Below, in pieces: positions 15,004 through 18,224 of a DNA stretch of 64,000 nt. The notes beneath the pieces are model-generated. The model ran no database searches. It had not been told where the DNA came from and saw only the letters and a program-made list of their open reading frames with translations. Numbering within the stretch: the first letter of the stretch is position 1; each line of letters opens with the position of its first letter. The stretch comes from Tateyamaria sp. Alg231-49 (GTDB lineage Bacteria; Pseudomonadota; Alphaproteobacteria; Rhodobacterales; Rhodobacteraceae), in NCBI RefSeq assembly GCF_900143535.1, contig NZ_FRFA01000007.1, positions 62,001 through 126,000 of the forward strand. Reading direction: 5' to 3'. The translations under genes were made by a program, and so were the position numbers.

Positions 15004-16485
15004 TCACTCTGCCGCCTTCATTTCGAACCCTTTTTCGATCATGTCGGCTGGCTTCACTGGGTATTCGCCAGAGAAACACGCATCGCAGTATTGCGGGCTG
15101 CTTGCATCCCGTCCATTAGCTTCGCCCACGGCGCGGTATAGCCCGTCCAGCGAGATGAATTTGAGGCTGTCCACACCCAGATGTTCGGTCATCTCGGCTT
15201 CGCTCATTGTAGCGGCAAGCAGTTTTTCCCGTTGCGGTGTGTCCACGCCATAAAAACAAGGCCAAGCGGTGGGGGGCGATGCGATGCGGAAGTGTACCTC
15301 TTTCGCACCAGCATCGAGGATCATTTCCTTGATCTTGCGCGAGGTCGTGCCGCGCACCACCGAGTCGTCCACGAGGATCACACGCTTGCCCTTGATCAGG
15401 GCGCGGTTGACGTTGAGTTTGAGACGCACACCCATGTTGCGGATCTGCTCTGTCGGTTCAATGAAGGTGCGGCCCATGTACTGGTTGCGAATGATGCCCA
15501 TCGCATAGGGGATGCCGGATTCCAGCGAATACCCGATGGCCGCGGGCGTACCACTGTCAGGGACCGGGCAGACAAGATCCGCATCAACAGGGGCTTCTTT
15601 GGCCAGTTCACGCCCGATGTTTTCGCGGGTTTCATAGACGCTGCGCCCACCCAGAATGCTGTCGGGGCGCGAGAAATAGACGTGTTCAAAAATGCAAAAG
15701 CGCGATTTTTGACGGCGGAACGGATGATGGCTTTCGACACCGGCATCGGTGATGACAACCATCTCGCCCGGCTCAATCTCGCGCACGAACTCGGCGCCGA
15801 TGATGTCGAGCGCGCAGGTTTCGGAACTGAGCACCCAGCCTGTCGGCAGTTGACCCAGCACGAGAGGGCGGACGCCCAAGGGGTCGCGCACGCCGATCAG
15901 CTTGGTGCGTGTCATCGCCACAACGGAAAAAGCGCCTTCGACCCGGCGCAAGGCGTCTTCCATGCGTTCGGGGATGTTGCGTTGCAAAGAGCGTGCCATC
16001 AGATGGATGATGCATTCGCTGTCTGAGGAAGATTGAAAGATCGATCCGCGCTCGATCAACTCACGTCTTAGCGCGTCGGCATTGGTGATATTGCCGTTGT
16101 GAGCAATTGCAGCCCCACCCATTGCAAATTCGCCAAAGAAAGGCTGGACGTCACGGATGGCGGTTTGACCCTTGGACCCTGCGGTGGAGTAGCGCACGTG
16201 ACCGATAGACAGCGCACCGGGCAGTGTTTCCATAACTTTTTGCGATGTGAAGTTGTCACGTACATAACCAAAGCGGCGTGCAGAGTTAAAGCCGTGGTCG
16301 GGGTGGTAAGAAACTATACCGCCCGCTTCTTGTCCGCGATGTTGCAAGGCATGCAGGCCAAGCGCGACAAAGTTGGCGGCATCTACTGTGCCGAGAACTC
16401 CAAATATGCCGCACTCCTCCTTTAACTTGTCATCATCAAACGGATGGGCAGGGGGCATTAGCGCGTCGGCGTCTTGGTCGGACAA
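15004..16485 (-). CDS. purF: Amidophosphoribosyltransferase
   Basis: A 493-residue enzyme for the first committed step of purine synthesis, PRPP plus glutamine to phosphoribosylamine. EECGIFGVLG places the catalytic cysteine at residue 25, exposed after removal of a propeptide. The PRPP-binding loop VILVDDSVVRGTTS lies in the C-terminal half. The best start is a TTG at 16485 with GGAG seven bases upstream; an ATG at 16458 is the alternative. In many bacteria cvpA lies directly upstream; here a broken Hint gene separates them. Confidence 0.96.
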   Translation of the reverse strand: MSDQDADALMPPAHPFDDDKLKEECGIFGVLGTVDAANFVALGLHALQHRGQEAGGIVSYHPDHGFNSARRFGYVRDNFTSQKVMETLPGALSIGHVRYSTAGSKGQTAIRDVQPFFGEFAMGGAAIAHNGNITNADALRRELIERGSIFQSSSDSECIIHLMARSLQRNIPERMEDALRRVEGAFSVVAMTRTKLIGVRDPLGVRPLVLGQLPTGWVLSSETCALDIIGAEFVREIEPGEMVVITDAGVESHHPFRRQKSRFCIFEHVYFSRPDSILGGRSVYETRENIGRELAKEAPVDADLVCPVPDSGTPAAIGYSLESGIPYAMGIIRNQYMGRTFIEPTEQIRNMGVRLKLNVNRALIKGKRVILVDDSVVRGTTSRKIKEMILDAGAKEVHFRIASPPTAWPCFYGVDTPQREKLLAATMSEAEMTEHLGVDSLKFISLDGLYRAVGEANGRDASSPQYCDACFSGEYPVKPADMIEKGFEMKAAE

Positions 16486-16574: not shown

Positions 16575-17149
16575 TTAAGCCGCTGCAGCGTCGGGTGCGG
16601 GCATTTTGCCATCCAACAGGGCCAAAAGGGCACGTGTGTCACCGTAATTGAGGGCCGGGTAAAAGCTGACGGCGCTTCCGTCAAACGCGTGGATCAAAAG
16701 GCCGGTCTGGGCATAGATCATTTCTTCTTCCTCGAAATGCAGGGTGGCTAGGTCGGGGCCCGCGAACAGGGTGGGCCGAATGCCGTTCCACCCGCTGAGC
16801 GCCTTGATCGGAACAGACACCACGGGGGCCTGCGACCATCGCGCCGGAGGTGTCAAAGCGATGTGGCCATCTGCCGGCAGTGCAACGTCAGAACACGTCG
16901 ACAGCACGCCGCCCGGCACATGCACCAAAGGGGCGCGTTGTTTGGGATGGGCGATGGCTGTGATGGTGGCAAAACCGCCATCCATCGTCGCCACGCGGTC
17001 CCCCGCAATCAGGTCATCAACGCTGGCCCAGCCACGTGTTGTTTCCAGTCTGGTCTGGTCTGGGCGCTTAGCGTAGCGGTGTACTGGGGAAAGTTTGGGT
17101 GAACGGTTGGTGCAAACGTTGTGAAGGCGGCGTCATGATTGAGGAACAT
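16575..17149 (-). pseudogene. Hint-domain protein gene, frameshifted by a (CAGAC)3 repeat
   Basis: An ATG at 17149 with an upstream GGAG site opens a frame for MFLNHDAAFTTFAP... that runs off into a stop about 45 codons later. The rest of the protein (RLETTRGWASVDDLIAGDRV and onward to the stop at 16575) continues in another frame and is clearly Hint-like, with the G-W-x(4)-L-x-x-GDRV pattern. The frames join at three tandem CAGAC units (17048-17062 on the complement). Removing one unit restores a single 189-residue frame reading AQTRLETTRGW. It is therefore a pseudogene, a phase-variable gene in its off state, or a sequence error. It lacks the N-terminal Cys of self-splicing Hint domains. 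It sits between purF and cvpA. Confidence 0.75.
17048..17062 (-). repeat. Three tandem CAGAC units inside the Hint gene
   Basis: GTCTG repeated three times on the plus strand (CAGAC on the coding strand). The unit of five bases changes the reading frame with each gain or loss; two units would restore the frame. Confidence 0.9.
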
Positions 17150-17603
17150 TTTGGCTCTCCGGTGTGGTTTGTGTGACTGTCTTCTGCCACCAAAAACGCA
17201 TCACAAATCTGCCGCTTTTTCGTCACAAAGAGGGCGATAGGCGGGCTCTGTTTCACCTCAGATGCCAGAGGGGTTTACAGGGGGCTCACTTTGCACGTTT
17301 GGGCCACGCGATTAACCGGGTGTTTACTATGATCGCCTGAAGCCCAAGTCGCGACGGTTCTGGCTGCACGCGCAAATCGTGATTAAGCCGGATGATTCTG
17401 AGGTTAACTTCAGGCCACATTGGCCGACTGGCACCAAAGCGATGCCTTGCGCTTCAAGTGTTCGTCGCCGGTCTGCTCATTTTCGTAGTGACCGGAACGC
17501 GAGACGTGGTTTTTAAGGGCACCTTCTGGGCAAAACCGCATTGACCGCAGTGGCATCGCCAAGAAAATTGCAGATCAGCACAAGTGAGTTGACTGTCAGA
17601 GCA
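17150..17603. other. Intergenic stretch with no recognised gene
   Basis: About 450 bases between cvpA and the Hint gene, lower in GC than its surroundings. I see no supported open frame, tRNA or strong hairpin. TTAA-containing segments near 17311 and 17402 could belong to a promoter, but nothing is clear. Confidence 0.5.
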
Positions 17604-18161
17604 TCACTCAGCTGTGCAATTTCCCACGAGGGCCTCGTATTGGGCCGTAATCCAGCCCAAAGCCTCTTCGGGATTTTGCTCTTCGATCTGGCCGGTGAAA
17701 CGTCCGAACACGGCGGCTGACCGGCTTTCGTCGACGATGGTGTATTCCTGACCTGTTATCACGGTGTCGTAGACAAAAAAGGCGATTGCCACCAGCAAGA
17801 CGCCACGCGCCACCCCAAAGAGAAAGCCCATGCCCTGATCGATCCCGCCAACTGCCGAACGTTGCACAAGGGATGAAAACAGCGGGGTAAAGAGAGAGAC
17901 TACAATCAGCGCCACCGCAAAGACGAGCGCAAAAGCACCGATCATGCTCAATTCGCAACTGTCAGCGAGGAACTCGCCAACCACTGGAATTTCGCGCACC
18001 AAAGGTTCGACGCGCGGGGCAAACAAGAACGCCAGGACAGCCGCCGCGATCCACGCCGCAATAGCCATGACTTCACGCACGATACCGCGCCCATAGGCTA
18101 GCAGCGCCGACAGGATGATGACCACGGCCACAATGCCGTCAATGATGGTGAACCCTTCCAT
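17604..18161 (-). CDS. cvpA: CvpA family membrane protein
   Basis: A 185-residue inner-membrane protein with four predicted helices: the first in IIDGIVAVVIILSALLAYGRG, followed by REVMAIAAWIAAAVLAFLFA, a helix from IGAFALVFAVALIVVSLF, and GVARGVLLVAIAFFVYD. The GxxRG elements after helices 1 and 4 are typical of CvpA. The family is linked to envelope homeostasis and is often next to purF. The ATG at 18161 has AAGGA upstream. The radA stop lies 63 bases before it. Confidence 0.92.
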   Translation of the reverse strand: MEGFTIIDGIVAVVIILSALLAYGRGIVREVMAIAAWIAAAVLAFLFAPRVEPLVREIPVVGEFLADSCELSMIGAFALVFAVALIVVSLFTPLFSSLVQRSAVGGIDQGMGFLFGVARGVLLVAIAFFVYDTVITGQEYTIVDESRSAAVFGRFTGQIEEQNPEEALGWITAQYEALVGNCTAE

Positions 18162-18224
18162 GGTCCTTTTCCTTCTTCTGCTCGACTTGGGCCATACGGC
18201 CGACGTCCCGTTCATCCGTTGGCA

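Follow-up and report, generated by a model that had tools for sequence, protein, structure and literature searches.

A (CAGAC)3 repeat at the frame break of a predicted Hint-fold gene in Tateyamaria sp. Alg231-49: probably a recent duplication

When a gene loses its reading frame exactly at a short tandem repeat, is the repeat a switch that turns the gene on and off, or the trace of a single mutation? This question is raised by a locus on the minus strand of the window (the whole stretch of 64,000 nucleotides analysed here), where a well-initiated N terminus and a Hint-like C terminus lie in different frames. The original prediction, made from this sequence, placed the break at three CAGAC units and proposed a phase-variable gene; the two frames and the position of the break were confirmed. 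Our preferred answer, to which we give a probability of roughly two in three, is that a recent and real 5-bp tandem duplication created a loss-of-function allele of a dispensable Hint-fold gene between cvpA and purF.

One gene in two frames

The features of the locus are collected in Table 1. Translation from the ATG gives a product of 46 aa (MFLNHD...ALMT), and the Hint-like frame is out of register with this N-terminal frame across (CAGAC)3. The repeat, the 15-mer CAGACCAGACCAGAC in our searches, was also reported by Tandem Repeats Finder (17048-17063, 3.2 copies), and it lies inside the frame, so that the number of units sets whether the frame is whole. Beyond the repeat, the rest of the Hint-like frame has no stop inside in the window sequence, and its earliest ATG, GTG or TTG is the GTG at 16994.

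Table 1. Positions of the broken gene, its repeat and its neighbours in the window
Feature	Position	Strand	Details
purF-like neighbour, downstream	15004..16485	-	same strand as gene; synteny marker
Hint-like C-terminal frame	16575..17057	-	160 codons from join, then TAA 16575-16577
In-frame GTG	16992..16994	-	14 nt beyond early stop, GGGGGA before; possible weak re-initiation site
N-terminal frame of broken gene	17009..17149	-	ATG 17149, 46 codons (17149 to 17012), TGA 17009-17011
(CAGAC)3, point of frame break	17048..17062	-	three units; exact tandem repeat
Likely ribosome-binding site GGAGAG of N-terminal frame	17155..17160	-	sequence reading
Conserved upstream stretch TTGTGAC.AAAAAGCGGC.GATTTGTG	17202..17228	-	comparison of 14 loci
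cvpA-like neighbour, upstream	17604..18215	-	same strand as gene; synteny marker

Judged from the sequence, the broken gene is one unit of 189 codons that is split at the repeat. Deletion of one CAGAC unit was predicted to restore a single 189-residue frame with the junction AQTRLETTRGW, and this junction is found in P0002, the best of the 49 homologues of the Hint-like piece in the protein database. P0002, which is named Tateyamaria sp. by one source, is whole at 189 aa, is 98% identical across the full C-terminal query, and its first 32 residues are those of the N-terminal frame of the window (32/32). At residue 142 the window has Met, as do 37 of 44 homologues, and P0002 has Ile. When 44 of the 49 homologues were aligned (P0010, with a longer start, P0020, P0045 and P0046, with short or odd C termini, and P0006 were left out), the first Met was invariant, and so were G38, W39 and other columns beyond the join. 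Because the relatives are whole, the N-terminal part finds its match and these columns are conserved, we regard the gene as one unit and assign the break to this genome or its close kin. That the break is beyond chance follows from the homology on both its sides and not from the statistics of the repeat. The odd C termini of P0045 and P0046 look as though these proteins were frameshifted at places other than the CAGAC join.

Whole relatives and the history of the locus

The genus was searched with the Hint-like piece in 20 genomes, of which ours was one. Of the 19 others, 13 hold a close orthologue (E ≤ 2.0e-45), five gave a distant Hint paralogue only (with best E values from 8e-8 to 2e-11) and the remaining one gave no match. 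The genome under study also carries such a distant paralogue outside the window (G000:C28:100926-101363), with 29% identity over part of its length and an open frame of 257 aa that has no internal stop. Read from the ATG that corresponds to that of the window, all 13 orthologues form a single frame of 185-190 aa, as against 46 aa in the window. All carry the N-terminal part, so that the refuting condition named with the original prediction, homologues that lack this part throughout, does not arise. Thus the claim that an extra unit breaks a single gene held up, as the 13 genus orthologues and P0002 are whole and lack the extra unit. Among the genus genomes compared, the frame break was seen in our own only.

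The orthologues also tell what the join looks like in related species. There, one CAGAC unit is present in two of the 13 (L003 and L004) and none in the other 11, and a tandem was found in 0/13; L014 and L015 have one CAGAC each elsewhere in the first 250 bases. In the wider family, a match at E ≤ 1e-15 was obtained in 33 of 100 genomes, our own included. Two of the 41 family matches listed, both distant members (G096:C5:276713-277303 and G114:C210:17350-17910), contain an internal stop, one each. A protein-database search with the 46-aa N-terminal frame yielded no candidate for a further broken copy, although clustering at 90% could hide some in the cluster of P0002, whose 18 member sequences at this level are not countable as 18 whole strains.

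The C-terminal piece has been under purifying selection in the past. The window copy differs from L003 with a dN of 0.098 and a dS of 0.902, and L003 differs from L004 with a dN of 0.196 and a dS of 1.300; six of the 13 orthologues served for these comparisons, and the dS for L014 was saturated. No relaxation of selection on the window copy was visible when its dN/dS against L003 was set beside that of L003 against L004. This pattern is compatible with a recent event as well as with a sequence error.

The neighbours of the gene, which we take to be purF and cvpA from their sequences and order, mark the locus in most of the genus. Within 1.5 kb on either side, purF accompanies the orthologue in 12 of 13 loci and cvpA in 11 of 13; the exceptions are L003, which has neither, and L004, which has no cvpA. 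Where the orthologue is missing, in six members of the genus, purF has a cvpA match no more than 1.5 kb upstream in every case (two of these matches are truncated at the edge of the interval), and tblastn with two homologues did not find the gene in this interval in any of the six. The cvpA match and purF lie ~0.14-0.44 kb apart in four of them, and in L079 and L080 ~1.3 kb still lies between the two. Many members of the genus have the gene and others do not, and it is most likely dispensable.

Ahead of the gene, 11 of 13 orthologues have GGAG before the ATG, and L005 and L007 have GAGG. Further upstream, a stretch of ~27 bases is much alike in 14 loci and lies about as far from the ATG in L003-L015 as in the window, with few changes, most of them in L014 and L015; it may belong to the promoter or leader of the gene. 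A scan for promoters and terminators returned nothing on the minus strand. A regulon that shares the upstream motif was considered and rejected, as the genome holds three matches at up to three mismatches (one perfect and two with three), the reversed control also gave three, and the genome has no second good copy of the stretch.

A predicted Hint fold that lacks the intein residues

The window piece matches PF13403 (Hint_2) with E 6.3e-05 and 23.8 bits and P0002 matches it with E 7.6e-06 and 26.8 bits, both under the curated cut-off of 28.4 bits. In this the two differ from accepted Hint_2 proteins; the likeness lies in the profile, which 43 of the 44 homologues match at E ≤ 0.01, and in the predicted fold. 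The N-terminal piece has no match in Pfam, and at E ≤ 1 neither piece has one in NCBIfam. The predicted model of the whole protein finds structural matches in inteins and in the hedgehog Hint domain, and the whole product is accordingly predicted to have a Hint fold. This claim rests on the predicted model, because a profile search of solved structures gave weak matches only (reductoisomerases at E 0.16-0.17 and inteins at E 0.34-0.43).

Self-splicing and self-cleaving Hint domains have Cys (or Ser) as residue 1, and in inteins the domain ends in Asn. In the model, residue 26 aligns with residue 1 of the inteins 6riy_B and 6rix_B; of the 44 homologues, 38 have Thr at this position, one has Ser and none has Cys. 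At residue 153, which the alignment pairs with the chain-end Asn, Asn is found in 0/44. The family therefore differs from inteins in that the positions of Cys1 and of the terminal Asn hold other residues in all 44 homologues. Residues that are invariant in 44/44 (P0002 numbering) are Cys84, Glu140-Glu141 and His152, the last of which precedes the position of the terminal Asn. Their conservation where the intein Cys1 and terminal Asn are missing hints at a function other than splicing. Hint domains have been listed among the features of fast-responding Rhodobacteraceae (PMC12487129), which has no bearing on this gene.

The repeat and the readings of the break

How unusual is the repeat itself? 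CAGACCAGACCAGAC occurs once in the window and in none of 100 shuffles, and it occurs once in the whole 4.5 Mb genome, as does its reversed control. In a first-order Markov simulation of 300 windows, 0.11 perfect period-5 tracts of at least three units were expected per 64 kb and 31 of the 300 windows had at least one; a smaller simulation of 100 windows gave a mean of 0.18 period-5 tracts and 16 windows with a tract. A sample of 400 kb from elsewhere in this genome held two further period-5 tracts of at least three units; with the window this makes three in 464 kb, where 0.53 were expected from 30 simulations (range 0-2). Such tracts are thus not rare at genome scale, because in the part of the genome examined they are about five times commoner than the Markov expectation, and this is a point against the duplication reading. 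(CAGAC)3 is mildly unusual for the window and not for the genome. The same 464 kb contain 11 tracts of period 4 and seven of period 6 with at least three units, and two of the period-6 tracts reach at least four.

The history that we infer for the recent duplication begins with the Q-T-R-L codons, which in this lineage probably once held CAGAC twice in tandem. Replication slippage would have added the third unit, a 5-bp duplication that shifts the frame past residue 32, so that translation would end at codon 47. The gene would then be off, or at best yield a truncated piece through weak re-initiation at GTG 16994. The same slippage may revert the allele at a low rate; there is no sign of frequent or selected reversion. 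Because the relatives have the gene intact and lack the repeat, we favor an ordinary recent mutation over a built-in switch. Such an allele resembles strain-specific frameshift alleles of dispensable genes, with which it shares one mutation, a gene otherwise unbroken and absence from some relatives, and no difference was seen in the features tested.

An unlikely alternative is a sequence or assembly error: the gene of the strain would be whole and the third unit an artefact. Both parts of the gene are otherwise unbroken and near identical to the whole P0002, and a single difference explains the break, which speaks for an error. To our knowledge, however, an exact five-base duplication is not the usual kind of error in short-read data, and this counts against the artefact. 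The genome is also 99.98% complete and 0.02% contaminated, figures that give no sign of poor assembly and are silent on base accuracy.

Phase variation, in which slippage between two and three CAGAC units would switch the protein on and off at a useful frequency, we consider improbable, at about one chance in ten. The position of the repeat coincides exactly with that of the frame break, and a near relative, P0002, has the whole allele; both points speak for such a switch. The locus resembles known pentamer phase variation (GACGA in hsdM and TCAGC in HI0867 of Haemophilus influenzae, CTTCT in Neisseria) in having a five-base tandem repeat in a coding frame, one unit more or less of which decides whether the frame is whole. 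It differs in having three units only and no tandem in the related species examined, in showing no known mixture of states, and in a product that is not known to be a surface or restriction-modification protein. The original prediction called a surface or exported Hint-type protein a plausible target of such switching; what the analysis supports of this is the predicted Hint fold. PhasomeIt surveys of Neisseria and Campylobacter set the pentamer cut-off at five units (PMC5953494, PMC6321876), and three units fall below it; in the former, the methods allow three units for lengths 5-9 and a table note for 6-9. A survey of H. influenzae counts pentamers from three units, and most of its pentamer tracts had three (PMC2651432), so that our tract stands below the cut-off of two surveys and at that of one. 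According to the same survey, two versus three units in HI0867 fit on and off states, and switching of (GACGA)4 to 3 in hsdM is cited as fast (PMC2651432). The two/three-unit cases speak for a switch and against the duplication reading, and because of them and of hsdM a low-rate switch is possible in principle. Pentamer tracts of at least four units are, however, absent from the 464 kb, about a tenth of the genome, and in the open-licence literature we found no paper on slipped-strand phase variation in Roseobacter or on phase variation in Tateyamaria. Because the related species lack the repeat and three units are below the five-unit cut-off of two surveys, an evolved phase-variation switch is not supported, and here we depart from the original prediction. 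A more speculative version, to which we give slightly less credence still, is a newborn contingency locus, in which a chance choice of codons in this lineage would have created two adjacent CAGAC units within a degenerate Hint gene, and slippage from two to three units and back would now produce reversible on/off variants in a marine roseobacter population.

That the split arrangement is functional, whether as two products or as one made through recoding or re-initiation at GTG 16994, is very improbable. This GTG stands close beyond the early stop with GGGGGA ahead, but the gene is whole in all 13 genus orthologues, inspection by eye showed no slippery heptamer at the join, and a piece begun at the GTG would be without residues 1-50 of the whole protein and hence without the first three predicted strands (23-28, 32-35 and 38-41). 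Programmed frameshifting was rejected on account of the whole relatives and the lack of a slippery heptamer by eye.

The comparison means that the CAGAC repeat is no part of the conserved design of this gene, and that the question posed by a repeat together with a frame break in one genome can largely be settled by examining whole relatives. A by-product of some use is the description of a conserved protein encoded between cvpA and purF, with a predicted Hint fold that lacks the catalytic residues of inteins.
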